Origin: Selenomonadales bacterium
GTDB lineage: Bacteria > Bacillota > Negativicutes > Sporomusales > UBA7701
NCBI GenBank assembly: GCA_029976065.1
Contig: JARKNV010000043.1
Location: 62,001-126,000 of the forward strand
Length of the DNA stretch: 64,000 nt
Direction: 5' to 3'
The notes beneath the pieces are model-generated. The model was not told where the DNA came from. It ran no database searches and saw only the letters and a list, made by a program, of their open reading frames with translations. The position numbers were made by a program, and so were the translations under genes. Below are positions 5,006-29,852 of the stretch, in pieces (position 1 is the stretch's first letter; each line of letters opens with the position of its first letter).

Positions 5006-5131
5006 TAGGCCATTCAGAAAGCCCCAGATGCAAGGCGCACCGGAAGAGCGCGCCGCGCCGCGTACTTGAAACGTACGCAAGCAAGCGCTCTGAGGAGCAA
5101 CGAAGCAGATGGGGCTTTATCAATGGCCGTA
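5006..5131. repeat. Palindromic intercistronic element, copy A
   Basis: A GC-rich, hairpin-forming element between purH and purD, ending 1 base from the purH stop codon. The outer arms (5008-5026 and 5110-5128) are complementary except for about three positions. Inside are a second stem (AGAGCGC with GCGCTCT) and an apical hairpin (GCGTAC with GTACGC). An approximately 80-base core is nearly identical to copy B at 29729-29852, with about nine substitutions, whereas the distal arms of the two copies differ in sequence but each remains self-complementary. Nothing known to me matches it. Confidence 0.75.
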
Positions 5132-5132
5132 A

Positions 5133-6668
5133 CTAATGCTTGAAGTGTCTTACGCCCGTGAACACCATCGCCATCCCATACTCATCCGCCGCCTTGATCG
5201 ACTCCTCGTCGCGGACCGAGCCGCCCGGCTGGATGATGGCGGTCACGCCCGCCTTCGCGGCGGCGTCCACCGTGTCCCGGAAGGGGAAGAAGGCGTCCGA
5301 GGCCAGCACCGCCCCTTTGGCGGCATCGCCGGCCTGGGTCAGGGCGATATTGGCCGCCCCCACCCGGTTCATCTGCCCGGCGCCCACGCCGAGGGTGCGG
5401 TTGTCGGCCGCCACCACGATCGCGTTCGACTTGACATGCTTGACCACCTTCCAGGCGAAATCAAGCTGGGCCAGCTCCGCCGCCGTCGGCGGCCGCTTGC
5501 TCACGATCGTGAGCTTGGCTTCCGGGTCGCCGGCGTCCTTGTCCTGCACGAGGATGCCGCCCGACACCCGCTTGATGTCCATCGCGTCCGCGCTCGCGCC
5601 GAACTCGGCCGTCAGCAGGCGGACGTTCTTTTTCTCGCTCAGCATCGCCAGCGCCTCGGCGCTGAATCCCGGCGCGATCACCGCCTCGGCGAACAGCTGG
5701 CCGATCTGCTCGGCCGTGGCCTTGTCCACCTCGCGGTTCAGGCCGATGATGCCGCCGAACGCCGAAACCGGGTCGGCCTCGTACGCCTTGGCGTATGCCG
5801 CCGCCAGGCTGTCGCCCGTGCCAGTGCCGCAGGGGTTGGTATGCTTGATGATCGTCGCCGCCGGCGCCGTGAACTCGTTGACGATGTTATAGGCGGCTTC
5901 GAGGTCGACGATATTGTTGAACGACAGCTCCTTGCCATGGAGTTGCTTCGCGCCCGCCACCCCCGGCCCGGCGAAGCCCTGCTCACGGTAAAAAGCCGCC
6001 TGCTGGTGGGGGTTCTCCCCGTAGCGCAGGTCCTGCACCTTATCGAACACCAGTTGCAGCCGCCCGGGGAACCGCCCCTGGCCAAGCTGCCCGGCGAGAT
6101 AGCGGGAAATGCAGGCATCGTACTCGGCGGTGTGGCCGTAAGCCTCCATCGCCAGCTCCATCCGTATTTCCGGGGAAATTTCGCCCTTGTTCGTCAGCTC
6201 CGCGGCCACCTGCGCGTACTTGTCCGGATTGACCACCACCGCCACATAGGCGAAATTCTTGGCCGCCGCCCGGATCATCGCCGGCCCGCCGATATCGATG
6301 TTTTCCACCGCGTCGTCCAGCGTCACGTCCGGCTTGGCGATCGTCTGGCGGAAGGGATACAGGTTGACCACCACAAGGTCGATCGGTTTGATCTTGTGGT
6401 GGCGCATCGCCTGGACATGGTCGGCATTGTCGCGGATGGCGAGAATACCGCCGTGAATGTAGGGGTTGAGTGTCTTCACCCTCCCGTCCATTATTTCCGG
6501 AAAGCCGGTGATCTCGCTGACGTAGATGACGGGTATGCCCGCCTCCTTCAACGTCTTCATCGTGCCGCCGGTCGAAATGATCTCCACCCCCAGGCTGTGG
6601 AGGGTACGGGCGAATTCCACCACCCCGGTCTTATCGGATACGCTTATAAGTGCTCTTTCAATCTTCAT
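5133..6668 (-). CDS. purH: Bifunctional AICAR transformylase / IMP cyclohydrolase
   Basis: Catalyses the last two steps to IMP: formyl transfer from 10-formyl-THF to AICAR, then ring closure. The 511-residue product has the N-terminal MGS-like cyclohydrolase domain (SVSDKTGVVEFARTL, STGGT) and the C-terminal transformylase with KHTNPCGTGTG and the terminal signature GGSVRDEES...FTGVRHFKH. The ATG at 6668 has AGGTGG 5 bases upstream; a GTG three codons earlier (6677) directly abuts the purN stop and is a less likely start. It sits between purN and purD in the operon. Confidence 0.95.
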   Translation of the reverse strand: MKIERALISVSDKTGVVEFARTLHSLGVEIISTGGTMKTLKEAGIPVIYVSEITGFPEIMDGRVKTLNPYIHGGILAIRDNADHVQAMRHHKIKPIDLVVVNLYPFRQTIAKPDVTLDDAVENIDIGGPAMIRAAAKNFAYVAVVVNPDKYAQVAAELTNKGEISPEIRMELAMEAYGHTAEYDACISRYLAGQLGQGRFPGRLQLVFDKVQDLRYGENPHQQAAFYREQGFAGPGVAGAKQLHGKELSFNNIVDLEAAYNIVNEFTAPAATIIKHTNPCGTGTGDSLAAAYAKAYEADPVSAFGGIIGLNREVDKATAEQIGQLFAEAVIAPGFSAEALAMLSEKKNVRLLTAEFGASADAMDIKRVSGGILVQDKDAGDPEAKLTIVSKRPPTAAELAQLDFAWKVVKHVKSNAIVVAADNRTLGVGAGQMNRVGAANIALTQAGDAAKGAVLASDAFFPFRDTVDAAAKAGVTAIIQPGGSVRDEESIKAADEYGMAMVFTGVRHFKH

Positions 6669-6677
6669 CGCATCCAC

Positions 6678-7295
6678 CTACCGTTTCTCGCTGATGATGA
6701 CTTTGCGGCCTTCGATGCGGAGCCGCCCCTCGCAGAACAGGCCGACCGCCCGGGGATACAGCTTGTGCTCCACGTGGAGGATGCGCTCGGCCAGGGCATG
6801 CTCGTCGTCGCCGTCCAGCACGGGCACCGCCTCCTGAAGAATAATCGGGCCGGTGTCCACACCCTCGTCGACGAAGTGGATCGTGCAGCCCGATACCTTT
6901 ACCCCGTACTTCACCGCCTGGGCCTGGGCATCCAGGCCGGGAAAGGCCGGCAGCAGGGCGGGGTGAATATTCATGATCCGGCCGGGGAACTGGCTGATGA
7001 ACTCGCCGCCGAGAATACGCATAAATCCGGCCAGCAGCACCAGTTCCACGTGATGCAGTTGAAGCTCGGCGGCGATGGCCTTCTCGAAGGAGCGTTTGTC
7101 GGCGAACTTCCGGCGTTCGATGACGGTCGTGGTGATGTCGAAGCCGGCCACCCGTTTCAGGGCAGGGGCGTCGGGGTTGTCGCTGATCACCACGCCGATC
7201 TTCGCCTTGAGCCGTTCGGCCAGGATGGCGTCCAGGATGGCCTGCAGATTGCTGCCACGTCCCGACACCAGTATCCCCAGCACCGTCCTATTCAT
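6678..7295 (-). CDS. purN: Phosphoribosylglycinamide formyltransferase (GART 1)
   Basis: Transfers a formyl group from 10-formyl-THF to GAR, step 3 of purine synthesis. The 205-residue protein carries the phosphate-binding [14 protein letters not shown] near the N-terminus, the catalytic [12 protein letters not shown] segment (Asn and His) at about 105-117 and [10 protein letters not shown] with the catalytic Asp at about 140-150. It overlaps the end of purM by 8 bases and ends in TAG 9 bases before the purH ATG, so all three are tightly coupled. RBS GGGAGG lies upstream of the ATG. Confidence 0.95.
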
Positions 7296-8340
7296 CGAAC
7301 ACGCCTCCCTTGATCGTCACGGTCCGCTCGCCGGCCGTCACCTCGCCGATGATATAAGAGCGCTCGCCGCGGCCGGCCAGGTCTTTGCGCACCGCCTCCG
7401 CCTCATTCGCCGGCACCGCCAGGATCATGCCGATACCCATGTTGAAGGTGCGGAACATCTCCGGCCAGGCTACCTGCCCCCACTCCTGCAGCAGGTGGAA
7501 AATCGGCGGCATCGGCCAAGCCGAGGCATCGATCGTCACGCCGCAGCCGGCGGGCAGCACGCGGGGAATATTGTCGTAGAAACCGCCGCCGGTGATATGC
7601 ACGAGGCCGCGTAGGGCGAAGCGCCCGAACAGCGGCAGGCACACCCGCGGATAAAGGCGCGTCGGCATCAGCAGTTCCTCGCCCAGCGTCCGGCCGAGCG
7701 CGGGAACGGCCAAATCCGGGCCGAACCCTTTCACATCGAAACAAATCTTGCGCACCAGCGAAAAGCCGTTCGAATGCAGGCCGCTCGACGGCAGGCCGAT
7801 AAGCACGTCGCCCGGCCTGATGTTCTCGCCGGTGATCAGGCGGGACTTGTCGGCGATGCCCACCGCGAAGCCGGCGATATCGTACTCCCCGTCAGGGTAA
7901 AAGCCGGCCATCTCGGCCGTCTCGCCGCCGATCAGCGCGCAGCCCGACTCGCGGCAGGCGATGGCCACGCCGCTGACGATCGCCGCCACCTTCTCCGGCT
8001 CCAGGCGGCCCACCGCCAAGTAATCGAGGAAAAACAGCGGCTCGGCTCCCTGTACCAGGATATCGTTGACGCACATCGCCACCGCATCCTGGCCGATCGT
8101 GTCGTGCTTGTCCATCATGAAAGCCAGCTTCAGCTTCGTGCCGACCCCGTCCGTGCCGCTCACCAGCACGGGCTCGCGGTACTTGCCCGCGTTCAGGGCG
8201 AACAGGCCGCCGAAGCCGCCGATATCGCCCAGCACCTCGGGGCGGTAAGTCGCCCGCACATGCTTTTTCATCAGCTCCACCGCCTTGTTGCCGGCGTCGA
8301 TATCCACCCCGGCCTGGCGGTACGTCAATCCTTCGTTCAT
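7288..8340 (-). CDS. purM: Phosphoribosylformylglycinamidine cyclo-ligase (AIR synthetase)
   Basis: Closes the imidazole ring (FGAM to AIR, ATP-dependent). The 350-residue product contains [14 protein letters not shown] near the N-terminus, [28 protein letters not shown] and [20 protein letters not shown], the standard AIR synthetase motifs, at the usual family length. Its ATG overlaps the purF stop by an ATGA. No purL, purQ or purS gene is in this operon, so the FGAM synthetase that supplies its substrate must be encoded elsewhere. Confidence 0.96.
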
Positions 8341-9794
8341 CCTTCTCCCCCGCGCTTCTTGCGGCTCGCAGCCGCCTCAAATACGAATTTGCTGCTCACC
8401 GCGTCGTCCCCGCCGGGAATGCTGCAGGGGTAATCGCAGTTGAAGCAGGCGTAGCACATCTTGTCGTAGTTAATGTTTGCCACCGAGCCGTACAATCCTT
8501 CCAGCGACAGGTAATAAAGCGCGTCGGCGCCGATGAAATCCCTGATCTCCTCCACCCGCTTGCTGGCGGCGATCAGCTCCTTGCGGGCCGAAGTATCGAT
8601 GCCGTAATAGCACGGGTAACCGATCGGCGGCGAGCTCACGCACATCTGGACCGATTTCGCCCCCGCTTCCTTCAGCATCTTCACGATCTTGCCGCTCGTC
8701 GTCCCGCGGACGATCGAATCGTCCACCATGATGACCGACTTGCCCTCCACCACCGCCTTGTTGGCGTTGAGCTTGATCCGCACTCCCGTATCCCGTTTTT
8801 GCTGCTCGGGCTGGATAAAGGTGCGGCCGATGTAGCGGTTCTTTATCAGCCCTTCGGCGAAGGGTACCCCCGACTCGTAACTGAAACCAAGGGCGGCCGT
8901 CGTCCCCGAGTCGGGCACGGCAATGACCAGATCGGCCTTGAAGCCGCTCTCGCGGGCCAGCTGCCGCCCCATGGCGAAACGGGCCGCGTACACGCTCTGC
9001 CCGTCGATGACGCTGTCCGGGCGGGCGAAATAGATATACTCGAAAATACACAGCGCCTTTCGGTCGGTATCCCCGAAGCGGTAATAACGGGGACCGTCGT
9101 CGTTGATAACCACCATCTCGCCCGGCAGCAGGTCGCGGATCATCTCCGCCCCCACCGAATCGAGCGCGCACGATTCCGACGCCAGCACCCAGCCGCCGTT
9201 CAGCTTGCCGATGCACAGCGGCCGGAAACCGTGGGGGTCGCGGACGCCGATCAGCTTGTCGTCGGTCATGATCACCAGCGAATAGGCGCCCTCGATGCGG
9301 GCCACGCTCTCCAGCACCCGCTCCTCGATCGTCGCCTTGCCCGAACGGGCGATGATGTTGACGATCACCTCGCTGTCGATCGACGTCTGGAAGACGCTGC
9401 CCTTCTGTTCGAGGTCGACCCTGAGCTCGCGGGCGTTGGTCAGGTTGCCGTTGTGGGCCAGGCTGATATGGCCGCCCGAATACGTTACCATCAGCGGCTG
9501 GGTATTGATCAGCAGGCTGGAGCCGGTGGTCGAGTAGCGCACATGGCCGATGGCGATGTACGCTCCCTCCATCTCCGGCAGTCCCTTGCGGAACACTTCG
9601 CCCACCAGGCCCATGCCGCGCTGGATATCCATTTCGCAACCGTCGGTCAGCGTTATCCCCGCGCTCTCCTGGCCCCGGTGCTGGAGGGCATAAAGCCCCC
9701 AGTACGTGTTCAGGGCCACGTCGTCATGGCGGGAAAAGATCCCGAATACGCCGCACTCCTCGCGCGGTTTGGCAAAGATTAATTCTGACTTCAC
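8337..9794 (-). CDS. purF: Amidophosphoribosyltransferase
   Basis: Commits PRPP to purine synthesis by making phosphoribosylamine from glutamine. It starts at a GTG preceded by GGGAGG. The 485-residue product has a 13-residue propeptide ahead of Cys14 (E-CGVFGIF), the N-terminal nucleophile of the glutaminase domain. The PRPP-binding loop [15 protein letters not shown] lies at about 365-379. A cysteine-rich C-terminal region ([11 protein letters not shown]) marks the Bacillus-type enzyme with an oxygen-sensitive 4Fe-4S cluster. Control of the operon by a PRPP riboswitch fits its substrate. Confidence 0.96.
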
Positions 9795-9835
9795 CAGTTT
9801 TCTCCTCCCGGGGTTTTGCTTGGCGCGCAGCCGCT

Positions 9836-9893
9836 TTACAGCTTCTCGCCCGTAAGGCGGAACAGCACCTCTTTATACGCGGTAGCGTATACC
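9836..9893 (-). pseudogene. Residual 3-prime end of a displaced native purC
   Basis: Between the stop of the present purC and purF, the minus strand reads 18 sense codons ending in TAA (9838-9836) that translate as VYATAYKEVLFRLTGEKL. An ending of the form AYxEVxxRLTG is what I expect at the C-terminus of an ordinary bacterial PurC of about 235 residues. It has no start codon and is not needed by its neighbours. I read it as the scar of the original operon copy, replaced in place by the foreign-type gene upstream (inference). Confidence 0.6.
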
Positions 9894-9899
9894 GAAAAT

Positions 9900-10802
9900 C
9901 TACGGTTTCACGCCCAGGTCCTTTCCCGTGATCAGCCGGTACGCTTCGAGGTAGCGCTCGGCGGTTCCGCGGACCACATCGTCCGGCAGGGCCGGGGGCG
10001 GCGGCGTCTTATCCCAGGGCTGTTTAAGCAGCCAGTTGCGCAGGAACTGCTTGTCGAAGCTCGGCGGGGTCCTGCCGGGCTCGTATCCTTCCAGTGGCCA
10101 GAAGCGGGAGGAGTCCGGGGTCAGGGATTCGTCAATCCAGATCAGGTTTCCGTCAAGAAGGCCGAACTCGAACTTGGTGTCGGCGATGATGATGCCCCGA
10201 GTCTCAGCATAGGCGCGCGCCTGGCTGAAGATATCGACGGAAACGTCGCGGACCTTCGCATACAGTTCATTGCCGATGAGTTTCGCGCCCTCTTCCTCGG
10301 TGATGTTTTCGTCGTGGGTACCCAGTTCCGCCTTGGTGGAGGGGGTGAAGAGAACCTTCTCCAGCTTGGCGGATTCCAGGAGGTCCCGGGGCAGCACGTG
10401 GCCGCAGACCATGCCCGTGGCGAGATAGTCCTACCAGCCGGACCCGGTGATGTGCCCGCGCACGATGCATTCCAGGGGCAGGGGCCTGGCTTTTCTGGCC
10501 AGCACGAACCGCCCTTCCAACTCATTGGCGTAAGGCGCGAGATTGGCGGGCAGGTCCTTGGCGTCGGCAGAAATGAGATGGTTGGGAACCACATCCCGGA
10601 ACTTGTCCATCCAGAACAGGGTTAACTGGTTGAGCACCACGCCTTTGTATGGGATGGGCCTGCCCATGATCACGTCAAAGGCTGACATGCGGTCCGTGGT
10701 CACCAGCAGCAGCGTTTCCGCGTCGATTTCATAAATGTCCCGCACCTTGCCCTTGGCAACCAGGGGATATTCCCGTATGTCCATCGAATCGATTACTTTC
10801 AT
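9900..10802 (-). pseudogene. purC: SAICAR synthetase with in-frame amber codon
   Basis: SAICAR synthetase condenses CAIR with aspartate. The 300-codon frame is the long type with MKVIDSMDIREYPLVAKGK, VTTDRMSAFDVIMG, ECIVRGHITGSGW and DTKFEFG, and is longer than the roughly 235-residue enzyme usual in Firmicutes. Codon 124 (10433-10431) is TAG, just after GSGW, where relatives carry Lys (AAG); the frame then continues unbroken as DYLATGMVCGHVLP to the end. A single A-to-T change explains it. Either the gene is dead, the stop is suppressed, or the base is a sequence error. The ATG is preceded by AGGGATAACG. It lies between purE and purF. Confidence 0.85.
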
Positions 10803-10853
10803 CGTTATCCCTCACTCCAACTTAGTGTTGTTATTGCCGGCTGGCAACCCCTG

Positions 10854-11345
10854 CTACTGGCCCAGCGTCGCCGCCACCTTGGCGGCTTTCGCTTCGACCT
10901 CGGCGGCCATCGTCTGGCGGTAGGCGGCAAGCTTCTCCCTCAGGGCGGGGTCGGCGGTCGCCAGCACCTGCACGGCGAACAGCGCCGCGTTTTTCGCCCC
11001 GTTGATCGCCATCGTCGCCACCGGGATGCCTGCCGGCATCTGCACAATGCTCAGCAGGGCGTCCATCCCTCCTAGCGGCGTACTGTTGACCGGCACGCCG
11101 ATAACCGGCAGGGTTGTGAAACTGGCTACGACCCCCGGCAGGTGGGCGGCGGCCCCCGCGGCGGCGATGAATACGCCCACGCCGCGGTCGGCGGCGTTCG
11201 CCACAAAATCGTGCACCTTCTGCGGCGTGCGGTGGGCGGACGCCACCACAACCTCGACGGCCACCCCGAAGTCCGCCAGCGTCTTGAGCGCCGGCTCCAG
11301 CACCGGCAGATCCGAGTCGCTGCCCATGATTATCGCTGCTTTCAT
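10854..11345 (-). CDS. purE: N5-carboxyaminoimidazole ribonucleotide mutase, class I
   Basis: Interconverts N5-CAIR and CAIR in purine synthesis. The 163-residue product shows the class I PurE motifs MGSDSDLPVLEPAL at residues 8-21, SAHRTPQKV at about 36-44, AAAGAAAHLPGVVASFT and GMDALLSIVQMPAGIPVAT. Class I enzymes work with PurK, which is not in this window. The RBS GGGGGAG lies ahead of the ATG. purE follows the permease gene by 36 bases in the operon. Confidence 0.95.
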   Translation of the reverse strand: MKAAIIMGSDSDLPVLEPALKTLADFGVAVEVVVASAHRTPQKVHDFVANAADRGVGVFIAAAGAAAHLPGVVASFTTLPVIGVPVNSTPLGGMDALLSIVQMPAGIPVATMAINGAKNAALFAVQVLATADPALREKLAAYRQTMAAEVEAKAAKVAATLGQ

Positions 11346-11381
11346 CTTACTCCCCCTTATAATCTATAACCCAATGCCGGC

Positions 11382-12752
11382 CTAGCCGGCCAGGAAAATG
11401 AAGCGGGCAACCACCAGCACCGCCATAACGTAGACGATCCAGTGGACCTCGCGGCCGCGCCCGGTCGCCAGCTTGAGCAGCGGATAAAACACCAGGCCTG
11501 CGGAAACGCCGTTGGCGATGCTGTATGTAAAGGGCATCAGCGTGATCGTCAAAAACGCCGGCAGACCCTCGCTGAAATCGGTGAAATCGATATGGCGGAC
11601 GCCTTCCATCATCATCGCGCCTACGATGATCAGCGCCGGAGCCGTAGCAGCGTCGGGAATCAGCCCGGCCAGCGGCGTAAAGAACAGCGCCAGCATGAAC
11701 AGCACCCCGCACACCACGGCCGTCAGGCCGGTGCGCCCGCCGACGCCGATGCCGGCGGCGCTCTCGATGTACGAAGTGATCGTGCTCGTGCCGAGCAGCG
11801 CGCCGAGGCTGACGCCGATGGCGTCGACCGTCATTGCCTTGCCTATCCCCGGGAAATGGCCGTCCTTGTCCATCAGTCCTGCCTTGGTCGCCGTCCCCAC
11901 CAGGGTGCCCATCGTGTCGAACAGCTCCACGAACGTGAAGGTGAAAATAATCGTCAGCAGCCCCATATGGAGAGCCCCCCAGATATCGAGGGCCAGAAAG
12001 GCGTTGCGGCTGAAATCGGGCACCGCCACCGGGTTGAACCCCGCGGGAATCTTCACCACCCCGACCAGCATGGCCAGTACGGTGCTCGTCACGATGCCGG
12101 CGAGGATGGCGCCCCTTATCTTAAGGGCCATGAGCACGCTGATCAGCAGAATGCCGAATAGTGACAGCAGCACCTGCGGCTCGGCCAGCCGGCCCATCTC
12201 GATGATCGTTTCGAAGCTGGCGGGAGTAACGTTGCCCTTCGCGGCAACCAGCTTCTCCACTGTGGGCGGGATGAGCGACAGCCTGATCGACATCAGGCCG
12301 GCCAGTTTCAAGCCGATGATCGTTATAAACAGGCCGATGCCGACGGTAATCGCGTGTTTCAGCGAGGGCGGTATACCCTCCACCAGTATCTGGCGAACCC
12401 GGGTCACGGTCAGGACGACGAAAATAAGGCCGGAAATGAACACCGCCCCCAGTGCCGTCTGCCATGGTACCCCCATGCCGACTACGACCGTGAAAGCGTA
12501 GAAAGCGCTGAGCCCCATCCCGGGAGCCAGCACGATCGGATAATTGACGAACACCCCCATCATAATCGAAACAAGGCCGGCGCCGATGGCGGTCGCCAGT
12601 AGCACCGCGTTCTTGTCCATCCCCGCCGACCCGAGCACGCTGGGGTTGACGAACAAAATGTACGCCATCGTCATAAAAGTCGTAACGCCCGCCAGCACCT
12701 CGGTCCGCACGTCGGTCCGGCGCTCGCGCAGGGCAAACAGTCTCTCGAGCAT
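11382..12752 (-). CDS. NCS2/AzgA-type purine base permease
   Basis: A 456-residue membrane transporter of the AzgA/PbuG (guanine, hypoxanthine or adenine) branch of NCS2. Characteristic stretches are NPSVLGSAGMDKNAVLLATA near residue 40, NYPIVLAPGMGLSAFYAF, TFVELFDTMGTLVGTATKAG and GALLGTSTITSYIESAAGIG. It is the first gene after the tandem purine riboswitch and is followed by purE, so salvage import and de novo synthesis share one transcript. The RBS AAGGAAAG precedes the ATG. Substrate choice within the group is inferred from its guanine-class riboswitch and is not proven. Confidence 0.9.
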   Translation of the reverse strand: MLERLFALRERRTDVRTEVLAGVTTFMTMAYILFVNPSVLGSAGMDKNAVLLATAIGAGLVSIMMGVFVNYPIVLAPGMGLSAFYAFTVVVGMGVPWQTALGAVFISGLIFVVLTVTRVRQILVEGIPPSLKHAITVGIGLFITIIGLKLAGLMSIRLSLIPPTVEKLVAAKGNVTPASFETIIEMGRLAEPQVLLSLFGILLISVLMALKIRGAILAGIVTSTVLAMLVGVVKIPAGFNPVAVPDFSRNAFLALDIWGALHMGLLTIIFTFTFVELFDTMGTLVGTATKAGLMDKDGHFPGIGKAMTVDAIGVSLGALLGTSTITSYIESAAGIGVGGRTGLTAVVCGVLFMLALFFTPLAGLIPDAATAPALIIVGAMMMEGVRHIDFTDFSEGLPAFLTITLMPFTYSIANGVSAGLVFYPLLKLATGRGREVHWIVYVMAVLVVARFIFLAG

Positions 12753-12848
12753 TGCTTCACTTTCCTTTCGCGGCTGTCTCCCAGTATGCCCCCCGGGCCG
12801 TTTTTTACTCCCCGGGCCGAGAGACGCGGCCCGCGCACGCCGTTCCGG

Positions 12849-12913
12849 AAAAACAAATAAACCCGTCGGGGGAATTCCATCTCGTAATGAGCGAAACCTC
12901 CCCGCCCGGGTTT
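12849..12913 (-). terminator. Single expression-platform terminator of the tandem riboswitch
   Basis: On the minus strand the AAACCCG...CGGGGA segment at the end of the PRPP aptamer (12913-12899) can pair with TCCCCCGACGGGTTT (12873-12859), followed by a T-rich tail at 12859-12849. Forming this hairpin uses bases that belong to the folded PRPP aptamer, so ligand binding should prevent termination. It is the only obvious terminator between the aptamers and the permease gene. Confidence 0.65.
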
Positions 12914-13014
12914 TTATCCCTCCGGTGTAGCGTCACCGAGTGGCGCCTGTACCACTCGGTCCAGGCCAAGCCGAAGCGCACGAGCGGCATCGGTCATGCG
13001 GAACCCTAGGTACA
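12896..13014 (-). ncRNA. PRPP riboswitch aptamer (ykkC subtype 2b)
   Basis: The minus strand carries the ykkC-class landmarks in order: GTGTACCTAGGGTTCC (13017-13002), GGACCGAG then GGTACAGG (about 12961-12945), and AGGGATAAAAACCCGGG near the 3-prime end. The GTGTACC...GGTACAGG combination and its position before purine genes match the PRPP subtype rather than guanidine-I or ppGpp aptamers. An extra strong hairpin (ACCGAGTGG/CCACTCGGT) occupies the middle. Confidence 0.85.
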
Positions 13015-13018
13015 CTTT

Positions 13019-13090
13019 CACTCGTAGTCAGGCGATTTACGGTCGCCCAGTAGAAACTTTTGGGCCATATTCCCAAAATTATACGAGCTA
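13019..13090 (-). ncRNA. Purine riboswitch aptamer, guanine class
   Basis: The minus strand shows the whole aptamer: P1 CTCGTA (13087-13082) pairing with TACGAG (13026-13021), TATAAT, the P2 arms around AATATGG, then GTTTCTACTGGGCGACCGTAAA and CCTGACTACGAG. The specificity base (position 74 in the xpt numbering, the C of GACTAC) is C, which selects guanine or hypoxanthine over adenine. Only a few bases separate it from the PRPP aptamer downstream. Confidence 0.93.
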
Positions 13091-13107
13091 TTCACTTGTC
13101 CATATCC

Positions 13108-13137
13108 ATTTTACTGCCGACGGTCAGGCAGTGTCAA
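13108..13137 (-). promoter_or_regulatory. Promoter of the purine operon
   Basis: Minus strand TTGACA (13137-13132), an 18-base spacer and TAAAAT (13113-13108) place the start of transcription about 10-15 bases before the guanine aptamer. The spacer and flanking bases contain an inverted repeat (ACTGCC and GGCAGT, 8 bases apart), so a DNA-binding regulator could also act here (inference). Confidence 0.75.
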
Positions 13138-13194
13138 CGAAAAAGTGAACCTTTTCGGCACTTTTCGCAAAAACGTTCGCCTGCCCGCTCAGTC

Positions 13195-14016: not shown

Positions 14017-14028
14017 AATACCCTCCCG

Positions 14029-14847: not shown

Positions 14848-14852
14848 ATCGC

Positions 14853-18452: not shown

Positions 18453-18460
18453 TCTTACGC

Positions 18461-21053: not shown

Positions 21054-21268
21054 GCCCCCACTATACCATAATTTGGCGTCACTTGTAAACGTCTTTCAAT
21101 GAGCGTTTCTTCCACGGAGCGAGGCGCACCTTTAGGCACGCACAGCGCCCTGATCTCCGGGCAATACGAATCCCGCATCACCAGCAGGTATTTTCCCTCC
21201 AAACCGACATCTTTACGCAGCAACTGGACGATTTTTCTATTTCGCTTTCCTTTAATCATTTCCTGCAA
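21047..21268 (-). CDS. Small hypothetical protein between pdaB-like gene and guaA
   Basis: A 73-residue frame (start TTG at 21268, or ATG at 21259) beginning just after the terminator of the deacetylase gene. Composition and codon choice look coding, and the product is basic with a mixed core (KYLLVMRDSYCPEIRALCVP). However, no good RBS precedes either start and its end overlaps the guaA promoter. No family is recognised. It may be a real small gene, a decayed one, or chance. Confidence 0.35.
   Translation of the reverse strand: MQEMIKGKRNRKIVQLLRKDVGLEGKYLLVMRDSYCPEIRALCVPKGAPRSVEETLIERRLQVTPNYGIVGAI
21060..21089 (-). promoter_or_regulatory. Promoter of guaA
   Basis: Minus strand TTTACA (21089-21084), an 18-base spacer and TATAGT (21065-21060). 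It lies within the last codons of the small reading frame at 21047-21268. Confidence 0.6.
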
Positions 21269-21272
21269 CGCG

Positions 21273-21310
21273 GAAAACGAAACAGGCAGGCCGCTCGGTC
21301 TGCCTGTTTC
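21273..21310 (-). terminator. Terminator of the PdaB-like gene
   Basis: Minus strand GAAACAGGCAG (21310-21300), a 10-base loop, CTGCCTGTTTC (21289-21279) and then GTTTT, starting 4 bases after the stop. Confidence 0.8.
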
Positions 21311-21313
21311 ACG

Positions 21314-22054
21314 TCAATGGCGCTGTATGCCCTTTTCGCAGTACTTGCTCAGCAAATCCCCTACGGTTACGATCTGATAGCCTTCGGCCTTGATTTTATC
21401 GAGGAGGATGGGCAGAGCGTCGGCGGTCTGCACCGGTGTGTCGGAGGCATGCATCAGGATAATGGCGCCAGGTTTGATGCGCTTCATCACCCGGTCGACG
21501 ATGACGTCGCGGCCGGGGTTCTTCCAGTCTAGGGAGTCGACGCTCCAGATAATGGTGCGGTAGCCGAGTTCGTCGGCGGCTTTGAGCGACCGGGCGCTGT
21601 AATGCCCGTTGGGGGGACGGATGAGGCAGGCTTCGCGGCCGGTGACCTCCTTGATGAGGGTGTGCGCTTTCTGGATGTCGTCTTTCACCCATTCGGGCGG
21701 CATGTCGCCGTAGTTTTCGTGCCGGTAGCCGTGGCTGGCGATTTCGTGCCCGTCGGCCACCATCCGTTTGGCGACGTCGGGATATTTGGCCGCCCAAGGA
21801 CCCATGATGAAGAAGGTGACTTTGAGGTTGTGCCGCTGAAGGGTATCAAGGATGGAGGGCGTGAACTTATTGCCCCAGGAGTGGTCGAAGGTCAGCGCCA
21901 CCACCTTCTGATCGGTACGGGCGCCGGCGATGGCGATCGGCCCGCCGGCGGCGAAGTCGGCCACCTGGACATAGACGGTGCCGATGGCGAGCAGCCCGAT
22001 GATGCTGTAGAAAAGATGCCGGTGGTAGATGAGGCTCCGCAGGTTTATTATCAT
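21314..22054 (-). CDS. Polysaccharide deacetylase, PdaB-like sporulation type
   Basis: A 246-residue NodB-fold deacetylase anchored by an N-terminal membrane segment (YSIIGLLAIGTVYVQVADFA at about 16-35). The catalytic motifs are TFDHSWG (motif 1, DH in place of the usual DD), SHGYRH (the H-x3-H metal ligands), RPPNG, DSLDW and ILMHAS. PdaB-type enzymes act on peptidoglycan during spore formation. A sigma-E-like promoter upstream supports mother-cell expression. The RBS GAGGAGG precedes the ATG, and a terminator follows the stop. Confidence 0.85.
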   Translation of the reverse strand: MIINLRSLIYHRHLFYSIIGLLAIGTVYVQVADFAAGGPIAIAGARTDQKVVALTFDHSWGNKFTPSILDTLQRHNLKVTFFIMGPWAAKYPDVAKRMVADGHEIASHGYRHENYGDMPPEWVKDDIQKAHTLIKEVTGREACLIRPPNGHYSARSLKAADELGYRTIIWSVDSLDWKNPGRDVIVDRVMKRIKPGAIILMHASDTPVQTADALPILLDKIKAEGYQIVTVGDLLSKYCEKGIQRH

Positions 22055-22082
22055 AAAAGACCCCTCCTCGCAACATCATTAG

Positions 22083-22111
22083 TATGTATGCGGGAGAGGC
22101 CTATTTTATGA
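22083..22111 (-). promoter_or_regulatory. Sigma-E-like sporulation promoter of the PdaB-like gene
   Basis: Minus strand TCATAAAA (22111-22104), a 13-base spacer and CATACATA (22090-22083), close to the sigma-E pattern GTCATATT-N13-CATACAnT. It overlaps the last codons of the upstream gene. Confidence 0.5.
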
Positions 22112-22744
22112 AAGCCAGCGGAGATAGGGGCGGGTTTGCAGGCAGCGGGCGATTAGCAGGTTGGAGATCTTCGCCGCCAGCCACAGGGTGATAACCACCG
22201 TGCCGGCGGTCACCCACCAGAGGAATTCACTCTGGCGTATCCAGGCAGGGACAATGAGGACAGTGGCGGCGACGGCGGCCAGCGAAGCCACGGCCAGCGG
22301 CACCACGGAATTTATCAGGAGAAACATCCACTTGCCGTACAGCCGGTCGGTCCGTTCGTCACGCCGCGACGCGAACAAGGTTTCGAGCCTGGCGAACCGG
22401 GTGGCTGTCCAGGCGGCGTCCTGAGAGGCGACGACGAGGGCGCCGGCCGGAGGATTGTAGTTGCAGAGGGTGAAGGAGACCGCCCCTTTGCCGGTAATCT
22501 CGGCGGTGAATTGCAGGCTGTCGATGCGAGGCAGGGCGGCGAGGATTTCTTTCAGCCGCCCGAGGTCGGTGACGATTTCCTGCGGGCGCTCTTTGCGGAG
22601 GCCGAGAAGATCGCCGTCGGTGCCGACAACGGCTTGCCAGAGGAAGTCGCCGTCTTCGCCAAGGATGGACCATATCTGGGCGAAGAAGGCATCGTTGAGG
22701 GCGCAGGCCGGCAGGCGGCCTTTTTCCGCGTATGTTTCCGCCAT
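22106..22744 (-). CDS. Hypothetical membrane protein with two C-terminal spans
   Basis: A 212-residue protein. The ATG at 22744 follows GGGAGG by 5 bases. Residues 1-140 are soluble (LNDAFFAQIWSILGEDGDFL near the start). Residues about 145-200 contain two membrane segments (MFLLINSVVPLAVASLAAVA and FLWWVTAGTVVITLWLAAKI). No family is recognised. It has its own promoter (22809-22837), and the PdaB-like gene follows 51 bases downstream with a separate sporulation promoter. Confidence 0.6.
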   Translation of the reverse strand: MAETYAEKGRLPACALNDAFFAQIWSILGEDGDFLWQAVVGTDGDLLGLRKERPQEIVTDLGRLKEILAALPRIDSLQFTAEITGKGAVSFTLCNYNPPAGALVVASQDAAWTATRFARLETLFASRRDERTDRLYGKWMFLLINSVVPLAVASLAAVAATVLIVPAWIRQSEFLWWVTAGTVVITLWLAAKISNLLIARCLQTRPYLRWLS

Positions 22745-22808
22745 ATTTACCTCCCGGCAGCGCGTAAGACGCTCAAGCCGCATGATAACTGGTTTCCCGG
22801 CAGTTCAT

Positions 22809-22837
22809 ATTGTAGCATCTCCCTCGCGAAAAGACAA
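22809..22837 (-). promoter_or_regulatory. Promoter of the membrane protein gene at 22106
   Basis: Minus strand TTGTCT (22837-22832), 17 bases and TACAAT (22814-22809), with TG one base before the -10 box (extended -10). Confidence 0.55.
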
Positions 22838-23251
22838 GTTCTCCCTGGCCTGCCAAAACAAGTTATTCAATATCTTACTATTTGGGGTTAATTATTTGGA
22901 AGCCCCGCTTCGTTCTTGATAAGAGGAGGCCTCCCGCAAGTTCGTGCGAACTTTTGGGAAGCCTCCCAGTCAATCACTTACTCATTTTATGGGCTTGGGG
23001 CTCCTTACATCATGCCGCCCCTTCTGGCGCCATCGCAGAATACGGGAATGGTGTTACTTAAGGGCGGATTAAAGGATTTGTAAGATGCGTTTTTTGAAAT
23101 ACGTGCACTATTTTTTCCCGGTGCCTTAATGGCGTTAACATCTCGTTAACATCGCACTTTCTGTACACTTGACGTGTATGGAGCGGTCAATAAAGGTGGG
23201 GGGAAAAACAGCCGATAAAATACTTTCACTTACCAAAACGGCTGGCCGGAA
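22838..23251. other. Gene-free region with a long hairpin and a sigma-D-like site
   Basis: No credible coding frame. A long imperfect stem at 22926-22965 (GAGGC, CTCCC, AAGTTCG and their complements) has no T-run on either side. A direct repeat GTTAACATC occurs twice around 23134-23153. At 23191-23218 on the plus strand TAAA-N16-GCCGATAA matches the flagellar sigma consensus and points into the 3-prime end of the sensor kinase gene, antisense to it. Confidence 0.4.
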
Positions 23252-25732
23252 TTATCCTCCGGCGGCGCTGTTTTGCTGTTTTAATGAGGTATTTTTGAAA
23301 TATACACTGAATGTCGTTCCTTGCGATGAGGTCTTGACATCAATCTTCGCGCCGTGCCGCTCGGCGATTCGGTAGCAGACCGCCAATCCAAGCCCGGTGC
23401 CATTCTCCTTGGTGGTCAGGAAAGGCGTGCCCAGCTTATTGAGTACTTCCCGCGATATGCCCTTGCCAGTATCGCGAACGCTCAGGACTACTTCGTCCTC
23501 CGTGGCGCGGGTGGCTACTGTTACCTTGCCGCCGGGCTCCATAGCCTGGAAGGCATTGTTGGTCAGGTTTAGGATCAACTGACGGATTTCCTTTTCATCC
23601 ATGAGGAAATCAGGAATTTCCCCCATATCGGTCTTCAAATCGTGGCCGGTGCGGAGGGCTTCGGCCTGCAGCAGCGGCACCAGCGCGCCCACCACGTCGT
23701 TGACGTTGCCTCTACGCATATCGGTCGCTTTGTTTTTGGCCAGCGACAAGAAATCGCTGATGATGGCGTTGGCCCGGTCGAGTTCCTCGATCATGGTATT
23801 GAAGTGTTCGCGATAGGAGACGCTCTCGTCCTTACGCTGGAACAGTTGCAGGTAGCCGCGTACAGTAGTCAGAGGATTTCGTACCTCGTGCCCGATGGCG
23901 GCGGCCATCTCGCCGACAGTATTCAGCCGGTCGAGTCGCAGCAGTTCCGCCTCCTTCGCTTGTATTGCCTGATATGCCTCGATGATATCCGCCGCCTGGA
24001 CGGCCAATAAGTCAATGTAGCTCAGTTCCAGTTCGTTTTTCTGGATGGTTTTACGGAAGTGGGTATTCAGCATGCCAACCAGGTGTCCATTTCTGGTAAC
24101 AAGCGGGGTGGACTGACACGCCCTCGCCCCTGCGGCAAGCATAACATCGAGGGAAGATGTGTCGACGAAAATCGGGCTTTCGGTGACGTCTTCGACGATT
24201 GTCCGCTGCCGAAGGGTTAATGCCTCGCCGCACGACGCTCCACGCCCGTCATGTACGTTGCTGAAGAATTCGAGGAAGTCTCCTCCGAAGCCCCGATGAA
24301 CTGTTATCTTCAGCGAATTGTCTTTGCGGTCTAACAATTGGATATTGCCCATGTCGGCACCTGACAGACTTATAGCCATACCAAGTACTTCTTCCAATAC
24401 TTCGTTCAGGTTGTTTTGGCTGACCTGGCGCATACTGAGTTCGTAAAGGCCCCTTGTGGCAATCAGGTCGCCCTGCCTGTGTCGCTCCAGCTCGCTGGTA
24501 CGCTCCTTGATGGTGTTTTCCTGTGCGGCGATGATTTCCTCTCTCAATTCAGCAGTTTGTTCAGAATCGCGAAGTCTTCGCCGATGAACCATAAGAAGCA
24601 TAGTCAGCACCGCCATAAGCGCAACTGTCAGCGAGCCTACCACAACAATCTCCCATTTATACAGTTGCCATAGCGAAGGCGGTTTGTTTAAAATGACGCT
24701 TCCCGGGGGCAGCTTGGCCTCGGCTATGCGCCAGCGCTGCAGTTCGTTCCAGTCGAATTGGTACTCTGCTATGTTCAGTGTCTCGATTTTGCCCGGCACC
24801 GCCTCCCCCTTGATGATGACCGCGGCCCTGGCGCCGGTCTCGCGGCCCAGGTAGTTCATGTTCAGAACCCAGCCGCCCACCGCGCCATGTTCGTCAACGT
24901 AGGTGGAGTGGCTGGCAAAGACCGGCACGGGCGCTTCGGCAGCGATGGTACGGACGACCCGGGCTGGGCTATAGGGCACATCCGCGGCGTCGCGCACAAA
25001 ATCCACGAACAGAATTGCCGCCGGTCCTTCGATGGACCGGACGCGCTCCCGCAATTGCGCCAGAGTCAGGTCGTTGAGGTAGGTTATATCGAGCCGGCCG
25101 GCGTACGGCGCGAGCTGGTGCGGCAGTTCCTCGCGAATCCTCCGCGCGAGTATTGAGGCCCCGACCACCACGTATAGCTGCCGGACTGACGGCTGTAGGG
25201 TCAGGATTAGCTCGGCGTTCTTCGCCGTGTCCATTGACGGATAACAAGCCGTGAAGTTGGCCGGCAACGAGGCGACGTCGATGTACATCGGCCTGGTATA
25301 GCAGACGAGAACCGGCACCTCGGCGAAGATGCCGCCGCAGTATCTGTGCAGGAAGTCGATAGCGGCGGGACGGGAGAAGGTCACAATGAGGTTTGGTCGG
25401 TTGCTGCCGTATTTTCGTTGAAAGATTTGTGCCAGGGCATTCATGACAACTTCATCGTCCGTGTAGTTCAACAGGTCGACGGACTCATAATAAAACTCGA
25501 CGTTGAGCGAGGTCTCGGCCCGTAGGCGTTCTTTGAAACTATTGGTAAAATCGGAATAGAAGGGGTGATTCATCAATGTTGGGTAGATGATTAGAACCTT
25601 TTTTGTCGGCACCGCCGGCGCGCTATGCCCGAGTCCCAATCCCGCTACGAATACGGCCAGGGCAACGGCGACGGCCAACGAACGCAAAATAGCCCGGTTC
25701 CCGCCATATTTATTGCTATAGGCATCTTGCAC
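23252..25732 (-). CDS. Membrane sensor histidine kinase with periplasmic-binding-like sensor and GAF domain
   Basis: An 826-residue kinase. Order: a signal or anchor segment (about 14-35), an extracytoplasmic domain resembling ABC sugar/tryptophan-type binding proteins (KKVLIIYPTLMNHPFYSDF at about 44-62), a membrane span at about 365-385, a coiled coil (about 390-425), a GAF domain (about 440-580), HisKA with the phosphorylated His in AIGHEVRNPLTT at about 618, and a HATPase domain (NLTNNAFQAM, DTGKGIS, GTGLGLA). It starts at GTG after GGAG. No response regulator gene is adjacent, so it is an orphan sensor; the ligand is unknown. Confidence 0.88.
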   Translation of the reverse strand: MQDAYSNKYGGNRAILRSLAVAVALAVFVAGLGLGHSAPAVPTKKVLIIYPTLMNHPFYSDFTNSFKERLRAETSLNVEFYYESVDLLNYTDDEVVMNALAQIFQRKYGSNRPNLIVTFSRPAAIDFLHRYCGGIFAEVPVLVCYTRPMYIDVASLPANFTACYPSMDTAKNAELILTLQPSVRQLYVVVGASILARRIREELPHQLAPYAGRLDITYLNDLTLAQLRERVRSIEGPAAILFVDFVRDAADVPYSPARVVRTIAAEAPVPVFASHSTYVDEHGAVGGWVLNMNYLGRETGARAAVIIKGEAVPGKIETLNIAEYQFDWNELQRWRIAEAKLPPGSVILNKPPSLWQLYKWEIVVVGSLTVALMAVLTMLLMVHRRRLRDSEQTAELREEIIAAQENTIKERTSELERHRQGDLIATRGLYELSMRQVSQNNLNEVLEEVLGMAISLSGADMGNIQLLDRKDNSLKITVHRGFGGDFLEFFSNVHDGRGASCGEALTLRQRTIVEDVTESPIFVDTSSLDVMLAAGARACQSTPLVTRNGHLVGMLNTHFRKTIQKNELELSYIDLLAVQAADIIEAYQAIQAKEAELLRLDRLNTVGEMAAAIGHEVRNPLTTVRGYLQLFQRKDESVSYREHFNTMIEELDRANAIISDFLSLAKNKATDMRRGNVNDVVGALVPLLQAEALRTGHDLKTDMGEIPDFLMDEKEIRQLILNLTNNAFQAMEPGGKVTVATRATEDEVVLSVRDTGKGISREVLNKLGTPFLTTKENGTGLGLAVCYRIAERHGAKIDVKTSSQGTTFSVYFKNTSLKQQNSAAGG

Positions 25733-26030
25733 CAGTTATCACTCCAATAAATACGCTCCAGGGTATATTAAGACCACCTTCGACAGTTTCCACACTTTCC
25801 CTGCGCAAAGTAATTGCCGTTAAACAATAAACGCCATTGCTGGCGTCGATTATACCTTTTGCTATGACATTCCGAAAAGTATTGCCTACATGATTCCACT
25901 TGGCCGAAAGTGTTATCTTCCTTTTTCGCAAGTGACAGCGTCTTATCTATTTTCGCACTTCGAGCGTTTCCCCGCCGGGCGATCTCAGCCCGTGTTACGA
26001 CCGGCCGCTTATCCTAAAGGTCCTCCATCT

Positions 26031-26360
26031 CGCCATTTACCGCTTATATTCCACGGCATATATCTCGGCATTAACGCCCCGCTTGATAAGTATCCCGGCT
26101 ATCCGATTTATATCAAGCGAATTGAGGATCGCATGGCGCGGCTACTCCGCGTGTCAGACCTCCCGGAAGGACTGACCCCGCACTCCCTGCGACACACCCA
26201 CACCTCTCTGCTGGCCGAAGCTGGAGTCGGTCTTGAGGAAAATTATGAAACGGCTCGGGCACATCGACGACGACACTACCCGCAGGGTATACCTGACGTT
26301 ACCAAGCAAATGAAAAAAGAGGCCGCCAAGAAGTTTGACAACCTCATGGACAACCTCTAA
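26031..26360 (+). pseudogene. Tyrosine recombinase (phage/ICE integrase) C-terminal relic
   Basis: The frame encodes an integrase-like end: YIKRIEDRMARLLR, then LPEGLTPHSLRHTHTSLLAE with the catalytic HxLRHT box. After GVGLEE the sequence slips out of frame. In another frame it reads IMKRLGHIDDDTTRRVYL, then returns to the first frame as VTKQMKKEAAKKFDNLMDNL. Two frameshifts and the missing N-terminal two thirds show decay. A GGCAACAAAATGGCAACA stretch just after it (about 26380-26397) resembles the repeats often found next to such integrases and may be an old attachment site. Confidence 0.75.
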
Positions 26361-26449
26361 TTTTTTATACGATTTTGGGCAACAAAATGGCAACAATTCA
26401 ATTTTGCCAACGGCCGCGCCCGCTTATTACGTGGGACTGTCGGACTTGA

Positions 26450-28099
<1,650 letters not shown>

Positions 28100-28104
28100 T
28101 TATA

Positions 28105-28389
28105 TTACTCAACAATTGCCAGAACGTCGCGCTCACTGAGGATGAGATAATCCTGGCCGTCGATTTTGACTTCGGTGCCAGCGTATTTGGAGAAGATTAC
28201 TTTGTCGCCTTCCTTGACGTCGAGTGCTACGCGCTGGCCGTTGTCAAGCACTTTGCCGGTGCCGACAGCCACGATTTTGCCTTCCTGGGGCTTTTCCTTG
28301 GCGGTGTCGGGAAGAACGATGCCGCTTTTGGTCCTCTCTTCCTTCTCGAGGACTTTGATGACTACCCTGTCGCCTAACGGCTTGATCAT
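28105..28389 (-). CDS. groES: Co-chaperonin GroES
   Basis: A 94-residue lid protein of the GroEL system: [20 protein letters not shown] at the start, the mobile loop ([20 protein letters not shown]) and [20 protein letters not shown]. The ATG at 28389 follows GGAGG by 10 bases; a longer frame upstream runs into the CIRCE element and is rejected. It is the first gene of the groESL operon. Confidence 0.97.
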
Positions 28390-28436
28390 GTGGTAATACC
28401 CTCCTTCTGTATTTGTAGCTGTATGTATTCTTGTTG

Positions 28437-28463
28437 TTAGCACTCACCACCGGCGAGTGCTAA
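28437..28463. promoter_or_regulatory. CIRCE element (HrcA operator)
   Basis: TTAGCACTC (28437-28445), 9 bases, GAGTGCTAA (28455-28463): an exact match to the CIRCE inverted repeat bound by the heat-shock repressor HrcA, 48 bases upstream of groES. hrcA itself is not in the window. The -10/-35 boxes nearby are not clear. Confidence 0.95.
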
Positions 28464-28600
28464 TTCCATAAATTATGATATATAATTCGCCGCGGAAAAT
28501 CAAGAGCAGAAGCGGCTAAAATCGGCACTTTTTACAACATTTTTTGGCCTGTCCGGGGATATCTCTGGTATTTTCTTCGCCCGACGGCAAATTTATGCGC

Positions 28601-28635
28601 GAAAAAACCGGCCGGGTTATTGAACCCTGCCGGTT
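28601..28635 (-). terminator. Terminator of the DUF1405 gene
   Basis: Minus strand AACCGGCAGGGTT and AACCCGGCCGGTT form an imperfect stem overlapping the stop codon, followed by TTTT. On the plus strand the same stem is followed by CTTTTTG. Confidence 0.6.
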
Positions 28636-29213
28636 CTTTTTGTGTTTAGGAGCCAGTATGCCAGCGCGGCAACCGTGGCGGTGAGGACGATGTTTGTCCA
28701 GGCGGCGGCGGCGAATTGGTCGGGCAGCGGTAGCCGGGGATGGGTGAAAAGGATGTAGTCGAAGAAGTCGTTGACGGACAGCCACAGGACGGTGAGGGCC
28801 GCCGGCAGCGCCGCCCGGGGCAATCGCTTCATGTAAACGAGGCCCTGCACGGCCATGCCGCCGTGGCTGAGGTAGAGCATCCAATCCTCAATGCCGGGCT
28901 GACTGCCCTGGGCGAGGAGGTACTGGCTGATGATCACGGTTGTCCAGAGGCCGTATTTGATTACGCCGAGGACGCCCGCCCAGGCGATAACCCGCTGCCA
29001 CGGCCCGAGGCTGTCGAGGCGGCCGACGGCCAGCCACCATATGTATATGGCGAAGAGAGCGGCATGTCCGGGCGAGTCGGGAACGAACAGGAGGAAGTAC
29101 CACGGCGTGGCCAGGAGTTGCTCCCAATACCAGACTACCCCCCAAACGGTGCCGGCGGCGTTGACGGCAACAAGGGCAAGCAGGAACCAGCGCTGGTAGA
29201 AGAGGGCGGTCAT
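28617..29213 (-). CDS. DUF1405 family membrane protein (YpjA-like)
   Basis: A 198-residue integral membrane protein of about six hydrophobic segments, with FLLALVAVNAAGTVWGVVWY at about 10-29, WYFLLFVPDSPGHAALFAIY at about 37-56 and LYLSHGGMAVQGLVYM. The conserved FVPDSP and SHGGM stretches are typical of DUF1405, whose function is not known. The ATG at 29213 overlaps the stop of the acyltransferase gene (ATGA) and follows GAGGG, so the pair is translationally coupled. Confidence 0.8.
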   Translation of the reverse strand: MTALFYQRWFLLALVAVNAAGTVWGVVWYWEQLLATPWYFLLFVPDSPGHAALFAIYIWWLAVGRLDSLGPWQRVIAWAGVLGVIKYGLWTTVIISQYLLAQGSQPGIEDWMLYLSHGGMAVQGLVYMKRLPRAALPAALTVLWLSVNDFFDYILFTHPRLPLPDQFAAAAWTNIVLTATVAALAYWLLNTKRTGRVQ

Positions 29214-29698
29214 TTGGCAGCCCTCAGGTCGCGCGCGGGTACGCCGCCGTAGAAGGAGCGGGGCGGGATGTCCCGGTTGACGAGGGTCATGGCGGAGACG
29301 ACGGCGCCTTCGCCGATGACGACGCCGGGCAATACGGTGCAGTTGGCGCCGATGACAACGTCTTTTTCGATGACGATTTTGCCTTTGCGCCATTCGTCTT
29401 TGAGAAATTCGTGGCCTAGGAGGGTGGTGTTGTAGCCGATAATTACATTTTCGCCGATGTCGATCATTTCGGGGAAAAATACGTCAAGCATGACCATAAG
29501 GCCGACGGAGGCGTTTTTGCCGATTTTGACGCCGAGCAGGCGGTAGAGAAAGTTCTTTACATGGAAGGAGGGGGATATGCGGCCGAGGGAGATAACGGTA
29601 AAGTTCCAGATTACACGGAGAGGGTTAACGGCCTCGGGCCAGAAGCGCAGCGAGTTTTTTCCGGCGACGGGGTGCACTTCATAACGACGTTTCACCAT
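29210..29698 (-). CDS. Left-handed beta-helix (hexapeptide) acyltransferase
   Basis: A 162-residue transferase of the LbH superfamily (maltose/galactoside acetyltransferase-like). The repeats are visible at about residues 55-155 as a hexad pattern of I/V-G spacing (IGKNASVG, IGENVIIG, IEKDVVIGANCTVLPGVVIG, IGEGAVVSA) ending with PARDLRAAK. The catalytic-type His lies in LLGHEFL. The acceptor is unknown. It is coupled to the DUF1405 membrane protein and preceded by the palindromic element. Confidence 0.8.
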   Translation of the reverse strand: MVKRRYEVHPVAGKNSLRFWPEAVNPLRVIWNFTVISLGRISPSFHVKNFLYRLLGVKIGKNASVGLMVMLDVFFPEMIDIGENVIIGYNTTLLGHEFLKDEWRKGKIVIEKDVVIGANCTVLPGVVIGEGAVVSAMTLVNRDIPPRSFYGGVPARDLRAAK

Positions 29699-29728
29699 AA
29701 CAATAACCTCTTTAGGTTTTTAATTGCC

Positions 29729-29852
29729 GATGCCGCTTCAAAAGCCTCAGCTGCAAGGCGCACCGGAAGAGCGCGCCGCGACGCGTACTCGGGACGCACG
29801 CTAGCAAGCGCTCTGAGGAGCAACACAGCAGATGAGCTTTTGAAGCGGCATC
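29729..29852. repeat. Palindromic intercistronic element, copy B
   Basis: The second copy of the element at 5006-5131, between the ANTAR regulator gene and the acyltransferase gene, both on the minus strand. The outer arms (29729-29753 and 29829-29852) are almost perfectly complementary (GATGCCGCTTCAAAAGCCTC with its complement). Inside are AGAGCGC/GCGCTCT and GCGTAC/GCACGC stems. The core from GCAAGGCGCACCGGAAG onward matches copy A base for base except for scattered changes mostly in loops; the distal arm sequence is different from copy A. Confidence 0.75.

Follow-up and report, generated by a model that had tools for sequence, protein, structure and literature searches.

A large family of palindromic hairpin elements with locally compensated arms in a Selenomonadales genome and other Bacillota

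The window analysed here is a stretch of 64,000 nucleotides (nt) from a Selenomonadales bacterium (assembly GCA_029976065.1, contig JARKNV010000043.1, positions 62,001 to 126,000 of the forward strand). It carries two copies of a hairpin element, one between two purine biosynthesis genes and one beside the gene of a response regulator, and both are members of a large family of ~126-nt hairpin elements that is scattered in many Bacillota. A preliminary description of the window had reported both copies on the + strand, and they were found there at the coordinates that it gave. It had also described a shared core with about nine substitutions, and distal arms that differ between the copies while each is complementary to its own partner. 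The 87-nt cores, taken from the CAGMTGC box to the GCAGATG box, indeed differ at nine positions, and the arms behave as described in the predicted pairs, the outermost of which are 5008-5128 in copy 1 and 29726-29857 in copy 2. The reported placement between a stop codon and the next gene is likewise correct, but the genes lie on the - strand, whereas the fold that is better constrained over the family is the one of the + strand, which makes the element antisense to these genes. Copy 1 has an ortholog at the same place (L182:1296) in G001, a relative from the same genus with a nearly closed assembly of three contigs.

Two words from the core (21 and 17 bases, up to three mismatches) each match the window twice, always exactly, against means of 0.02 and 0.24 in shuffle controls, in which two matches were seen in 0 of 100 and 1 of 100 shuffles. 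The predicted RNA folding energy of both copies is 6.1 to 7.5 standard deviations under that of shuffles on either strand. Further copies, whose absence would have told against the preliminary description, are numerous in the genome: a plain sequence search found at least 44 matching places (40 candidates scored), and R1, a covariance model built from 49 sequences, gave at least 143 matches at expect values (E) up to 0.01 (150 candidates scored; some matches partial). Copy 2 scores 127.5 bits with R1 at 29728-29855. In G001 there are 110 R1 matches at E up to 1e-4 (150 candidates scored). A first search of relatives returned matches in 19 of 41 genomes, own genome included; holders among the matches listed are Sporomusa acidovorans, S. 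malonica, S. silvacetica and several Selenomonadales metagenome-assembled genomes (MAGs). Across 199 sampled genomes of the phylum, R1 was positive in four, again including the own genome. Among these four are two genomes of family f72, G133 and G095, with 42 and 17 matches, respectively, at E up to 0.001. When 398 genomes sampled from the phylum were searched with a broader model, R2, 23 were positive, with rough E-values and eight candidates scored per genome; its training sequences came from four of the 23 (G000, G095, G133, G149), and the other 19 contributed none. The distant copies examined, one locus each from eight of these 19 genomes (L255-L262), largely agree in their boxes and tip stem and have a similar total length, mostly 120-131 nt, despite inner stems that are unrelated in sequence.

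Table 1. Coordinates of the two hairpin copies, their parts and neighbouring genes in the window, and of transposase genes near copies in the relative G001
Feature	Coordinates	Strand	Remarks
Copy 1, hairpin element	5006..5131	+	Best R1 match of the genome, 150.3 bits; between purH and purD
Copy 1, left arms (outer and inner, including AGAA box)	5008..5024	+	
Copy 1, core (87 nt, CAGATGC to GCAGATG)	5025..5111	+	
Copy 1, right arms	5112..5128	+	
Copy 2, hairpin element	29726..29857	+	Limits are the outermost predicted pair (29729-29852 in the preliminary description)
Copy 2, left arms	29726..29747	+	
Copy 2, core (87 nt)	29748..29834	+	
Copy 2, right arms	29835..29857	+	
purH (AICARFT/IMPCHase)	5133..6623	-	Stop codon faces copy 1
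purD (phosphoribosylglycinamide synthetase)	3686..4966	-	On the other side of copy 1
ANTAR-domain response regulator gene	29867..30427	-	Stop codon faces copy 2
Hexapeptide-repeat transferase-like gene	29210..29698	-	Beyond copy 2
Core-less hairpin, stem AAGGCTGTTCA/TGAACAGCCTT, 10-nt loop	3636..3684	+	After purD
Y1 transposase genes near copies	G001:C1:1958271-1958627 and 3136204-3136560		Chance proximity possible

The element had been said to resemble nothing with a name, and our searches agree. Rfam gave no match for it, either in a scan of the window or for four loci at E up to 5, where all hits were far below gathering scores, and no description of the family was found in a literature search that covered few subscription journals. 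Copy 1 was unmatched in 72,556 plasmid and 50,697 phage records (E 1e-5), and one exact element pattern had no match in viral contigs. Members were also seen in records labelled as other phyla, namely L103, L133 (Paludibaculum MAG) and L120 (Geobacteraceae MAG); the Paludibaculum MAG record looks misbinned, since L133 is flanked by sequence that matches the own genome.

Each element is an extended, imperfect hairpin, usually of about 126 nt. Its stems change freely yet remain paired, and they are interspersed with unpaired conserved boxes (AGAA/TTAT, AGATKC-NAGGCGC and GCAAC..GMAGATG) and with a tip stem that is itself conserved (GCGTAY...RTACGY). In an alignment of 49 sequences (A1), 96.8% of pair cells hold standard pairs and 24 of 37 pairs show double changes. 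Its covariation of 0.388 exceeds both the shuffled (0.154) and the slid-register (at most 0.093) controls and was reached by 0 of 500 shuffles, though neither control corrects fully for relatedness. A second alignment (A2), built separately from 22 f72 sequences, is 94.2% paired with double changes at 23 of 40 pairs. Strong covariation in two distant clades supports the view that structure is kept while sequence changes, and so extends to the whole family what had been proposed from two copies. Arms pair better with their own partners than with swapped ones (mean score 15.06 vs 11.21, with a maximum of 11.47 over 50 shuffles; 180 copies). Related arm sequences turn up again in distant families, so the arms were not copied from flanking genes.

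Cores and arms differ in how they change. The core looks to be under concerted evolution, and the arms look to evolve locally within the limits of the structure. In 158 pairs of copies (65 copies), the cores are at least 97.5% identical in unrelated flanks, all 86-88 nt long except for two copies of 143 nt. The arms of these pairs are under 70% identical in 78 cases, 70 to 85% in 25 and at least 85% in 55. As the arms are alike in some pairs and different in others, some copies seem to have moved or been converted whole, and others share only the core. Exactly identical cores with unrelated flanks occur in 19 pairs, 12 of which have arms under 70% identical. Arm identity is 0.83 between orthologs vs 0.69-0.70 between paralogs; core identity is 0.82 between orthologs vs 0.79-0.87 between paralogs, the latter being raised by own-genome paralogs that were chosen for their likeness to copy 2. 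Arms, but not cores, are thus retained at orthologous sites. This comparison excludes two pairs of different orientation and any pair whose flanks are less than 78% identical.

The arms of orthologous sites also fit a structural constraint. Among 71 changed arm pairs in 20 ortholog pairs, 60 are still paired, 39 by two-sided and 21 by one-sided changes, and 11 have lost pairing. For this count the pairs of different orientation were dropped, as were three of the remaining 23 for a differing outer register; the register was picked by best pairing, which leans the count to pairing, and several pairs share one Sporomusa site. L019 and L106 differ in core type although their arms are nearly the same, and one site common to f1 and Sporomusa genomes differs in both arms and cores. 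At the orthologous sites L020/L113 and L025/L124, the right arm has two alternative forms, TTATCAACGG in one and TTATGGGCGG (or TTCTGGGCGG) in the other, and both can pair the same left arm, the second by means of two G-U pairs.

The data favour the fold of the + strand, as RNA or single-stranded DNA, as the one that is kept. Over 206 copies, G-U pairs outnumber A-C mismatches 401 to 118 in all pairs and 315 to 65, about five-fold, in the two arm stems. By RNA energies the + strand exceeds the - strand in stability in 145 of the 206 copies, by DNA energies in 164, and it folds better in 22 of 22 f72 copies and in 8 of 8 distant copies. Of the 22 f72 copies, 16-17 keep a tandem UG/GU pair and 20 have a G-U pair at the tip-stem base. 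A mutational strand bias is not supported as the source of the G-U excess: unpaired columns are without C>T vs G>A asymmetry (0.059, 0.062). The folded + strand would more likely be RNA than single-stranded DNA.

The elements have a preferred place and direction relative to genes. Genes were called by our own codon-usage script, distances were measured from the ends of profile hits, and 207 unique hits from f1 and f7, less 47 at locus edges, left 160 placed copies. In 80 of these, both neighbouring genes are directed against the element; a further 44 are flanked by convergent genes and five by divergent genes. The right-hand gene is antisense to the element in 124 of the 160, with a median of 11.5 nt from the right end of the element to the stop codon of that gene (76 of 124 within 25 nt). 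All 25 placed f72 hits have an antisense gene on the right, and 15 are within 25 nt of its stop codon; here 25 of 35 hits could be placed, the loci partly overlap, and many of the ten hits beyond 25 nt are inside arrays. The eight distant loci comprise two antisense, two convergent, two sense and one divergent, with one at an edge. In 158 of 180 copies the right arm, read on its antisense strand, contains a stop triplet in some frame, and therefore the element could itself end a reading frame. Two homologous sites, L061/L018 and L014/L186, hold the element in opposite orientation in two genomes.

The elements of f72 also mostly run against the replication fork. With the fork direction derived from the position of dnaA and a terminus assumed at half the contig, 38 of 42 copies in G133 and 15 of 17 in G095 are oriented against the fork (23/27 and 10/11 when neighbouring copies are merged). 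In G001 the figure is 55 to 59 of 82, depending on a terminus taken at 1.4-1.6 Mb. Gene direction and fork direction could not be separated: convergent pairs stand at 10 vs 6, and convergent pairs within loci at 15 vs 12 with 17 undecided. The flanks gave no clear signal of a promoter belonging to the + strand. An intrinsic terminator T-run is absent from the f1 and f7 copies, where T makes up at most 37% at any position 3' of the right arm; their left flank is only moderately A/T rich, and single copies may differ from these flank averages.

Gain or loss of the element can be seen at one site. L192 is filled, with the element between a stop codon and the start signals of the next gene, and L106 and L019 are empty, with flanks 88-94% alike. 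The idea that the right arm is a pre-existing target sequence was set aside, as the arm is not seen in the empty site of L192. The core-less hairpin after purD in the window stands at a site that holds a full element in G001 (L182:2741). The family comes in length forms of about 79 nt (without the inner stem), 126 nt, and about 184 and about 240 nt (with extra hairpins). Large variants with extra modules in the same outer frame are found at L116:5400-5640, L084:7249-7438 and L071:6626-6809, and one module type has a GAAA tip loop. In head-to-tail arrays only the last unit has a right outer arm, and in L230, L233 and L047 the leftmost unit is without its 5' part. The inner units of the tandem arrays L230, L233, L235, L047 and L248 are joined nearly directly to the next left end, through GACCC in f72 and AAACCG in L047. 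Among the loci examined (whole genomes were not scanned) there was no autonomous relative of greater length with the same ends, and pairings over 300 nt within loci look like neighbouring copies. The Y1 transposase family (Y1_Tnp, PF01797) occurs in G001 and f7. G001 has seven Y1 genes, two of them near a copy, at 225 and 1387 nt (Table 1).

Taken together, we consider these to be probably mobile or formerly mobile dispersed elements that are selected for their structure. Such an element would have spread, or would still spread, as a non-autonomous mobile unit, and the folded + strand, putatively RNA and less likely single-stranded DNA, may be what the machinery recognises. The outer stem at each locus would keep changing by compensatory steps, often through G-U, and other copies would overwrite the core, either by gene conversion or by inserting anew. 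The preliminary description had offered a mobile repeat and a structured RNA as alternatives, and each fits in part: the former agrees with dispersed near-identical cores and with the filled and empty site, the latter with a fold favoured on one strand. We also considered that the arms are pre-existing terminators into which the core was inserted. This was set aside: an arm consensus is common to distant families, and over the family the arms pair best on the strand opposite to the RNA of the adjacent gene.

Several observations weigh against this interpretation. The flanking genes run with the element in 31 of the 160 placed f1 and f7 copies and in two of seven placeable distant copies. Both window copies are exceptions within the family in that RNA energies make them more stable as the - strand (+ vs -: -63.6 vs -66.3 kcal/mol in copy 1 and -65.9 vs -70.9 kcal/mol in copy 2), and the inner stem has no G-U excess (25 vs 32 A-C). 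The own right arm is the best or tied partner in only 68 of 155 copies, because the arms share a consensus, and template-switch repair of hairpins is another possible source of double changes. No target duplication is visible at L192 compared with L106 and L019, and other empty sites are too diverged. As for a mover, Y1_Tnp is absent from G000 (an assembly 88% complete), G002 and G005 and is represented only by fragments in G003 and G004, and no copy is present in the 12 of 48 Y1 loci that were fetched with flanks. A RAYT (REP-associated tyrosine transposase; REP, repetitive extragenic palindrome) or IS200 mover is thus unsupported, save for the two near-copy Y1 genes of G001. The Y1 search found no mover; reverse transcriptases and recombinases were not searched.

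A possible though less probable explanation is that the elements serve the cell as structured small RNAs, or as antisense 3' elements, and were spread by ordinary duplication; the + strand RNA rod would then be read by a host protein and might, for instance, block antisense transcription from entering the 3' end of a gene. The steady length of distant members with unrelated inner stems, the use of G-U on one strand, the GAAA tip loop of one module, the frequent siting by stop codons and the compensated arms at orthologous sites all speak for such a role. However, genomes with 40 to over 140 copies, a filled and empty site and tandem, partly truncated copies look selfish, the flanks are without a clear promoter signal or terminator T-run, the orientation is not strict outside f72, and length variants run from about 79 to 240 nt.

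It is unlikely that the family is a bacterial retroelement akin to the SINEs (short interspersed nuclear elements), with the rod-shaped + strand RNA copied back into DNA after gene ends. If true, this would explain the G-U bias and why the copies of f72 are oriented against the replication fork, as well as the head-to-tail arrays with a 5'-truncated leftmost unit and a right outer arm only on the last.

More doubtful still is an mRNA element in the manner of ERIC (enterobacterial repetitive intergenic consensus) or BIME (bacterial interspersed mosaic element) sequences, in which a hairpin of the transcribed - strand would attenuate, cut or protect the message, for example that of a purH-purD operon. 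In the mRNA context BIMEs attenuate and ERIC destabilises, according to PMC3049150. Most placed copies follow one gene or more on its 3' side, and the - strand of both window copies folds strongly, and better than the + strand by RNA energies. Over the family, however, the - strand has the lower stability in 145 of 206 copies, in all 22 of the f72 copies and in all eight of the distant ones, and wobble pairs are retained on the opposite (+) strand. The role in mRNA processing or stability that the preliminary description had suggested is weakened accordingly, as the adjacent mRNA mostly carries the strand that is less well paired. Finally, it is very improbable that the paired arms are made rather than selected, by template switching at hairpins during replication that corrects one arm from the other: L125 and L002 have arms of perfect complementarity and coordinated patches change at orthologous sites (CAA/GGG), but conserved mismatches persist (AGAA against TTAT, internal boxes), and the strand bias, about five-fold for G-U over A-C in the arms, is not obviously predicted.

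Several known systems invite comparison. The bcr1 repeats of the Bacillus cereus group are dispersed mobile repeats of about 155 nt with a conserved fold, and our elements, if mobile, are of a similar kind by description. Integron attC sites, which are recombined by IntI, have conserved R and L boxes. The BOX elements of Streptococcus pneumoniae (PMC3049150) are dispersed modular hairpin repeats with a predicted RNA structure and a proposed mobile past, built of boxA, a variable number of boxB and boxC. The present family shares with them optional internal modules within a constant hairpin frame, but its modules differ, its arms are locus-specific and compensated, and it spans distant families of the phylum. 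ERIC sequences occur in other taxa, and copy-specific covarying arms are not reported in the portion of PMC2267715 available to us; the terms "compensatory" and "covariation" are absent from the main text of that paper. The likeness to BOX and ERIC is one of kind, drawn from descriptions and not from sequence relation. REPs and BIMEs, and REPINs (REP doublets forming hairpins) with RAYT, are likewise palindromic, extragenic and in high copy (PMC2817692, PMC3116915), and REPs measure 20-40 bp (PMC3733652). Unlike the REP/RAYT system, several copy-rich genomes here are missing the Y1 transposase family. By this transposase test the element is not a REP with a RAYT, with a reservation for the two Y1 genes near copies in G001. 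By analogy, it appears closest in its way of working to a BOX- or ERIC-type dispersed hairpin, and we file it under neither.

The Rfam scan of the window also identified a purine riboswitch aptamer at 13005-13106 (-; 89.1 bits) and a TPP (thiamine pyrophosphate) riboswitch aptamer at 40954-41051 (-; 66.1 bits).

The two hairpins of the window thus belong to a widespread family for which there is good evidence that the fold of one strand is preserved at single loci, while cores are exchanged and arms remain local. Through this family it can be tested whether such an element acts as RNA or DNA, whether it is selfish or useful, and how pairing outlives sequence in dispersed bacterial palindromes.

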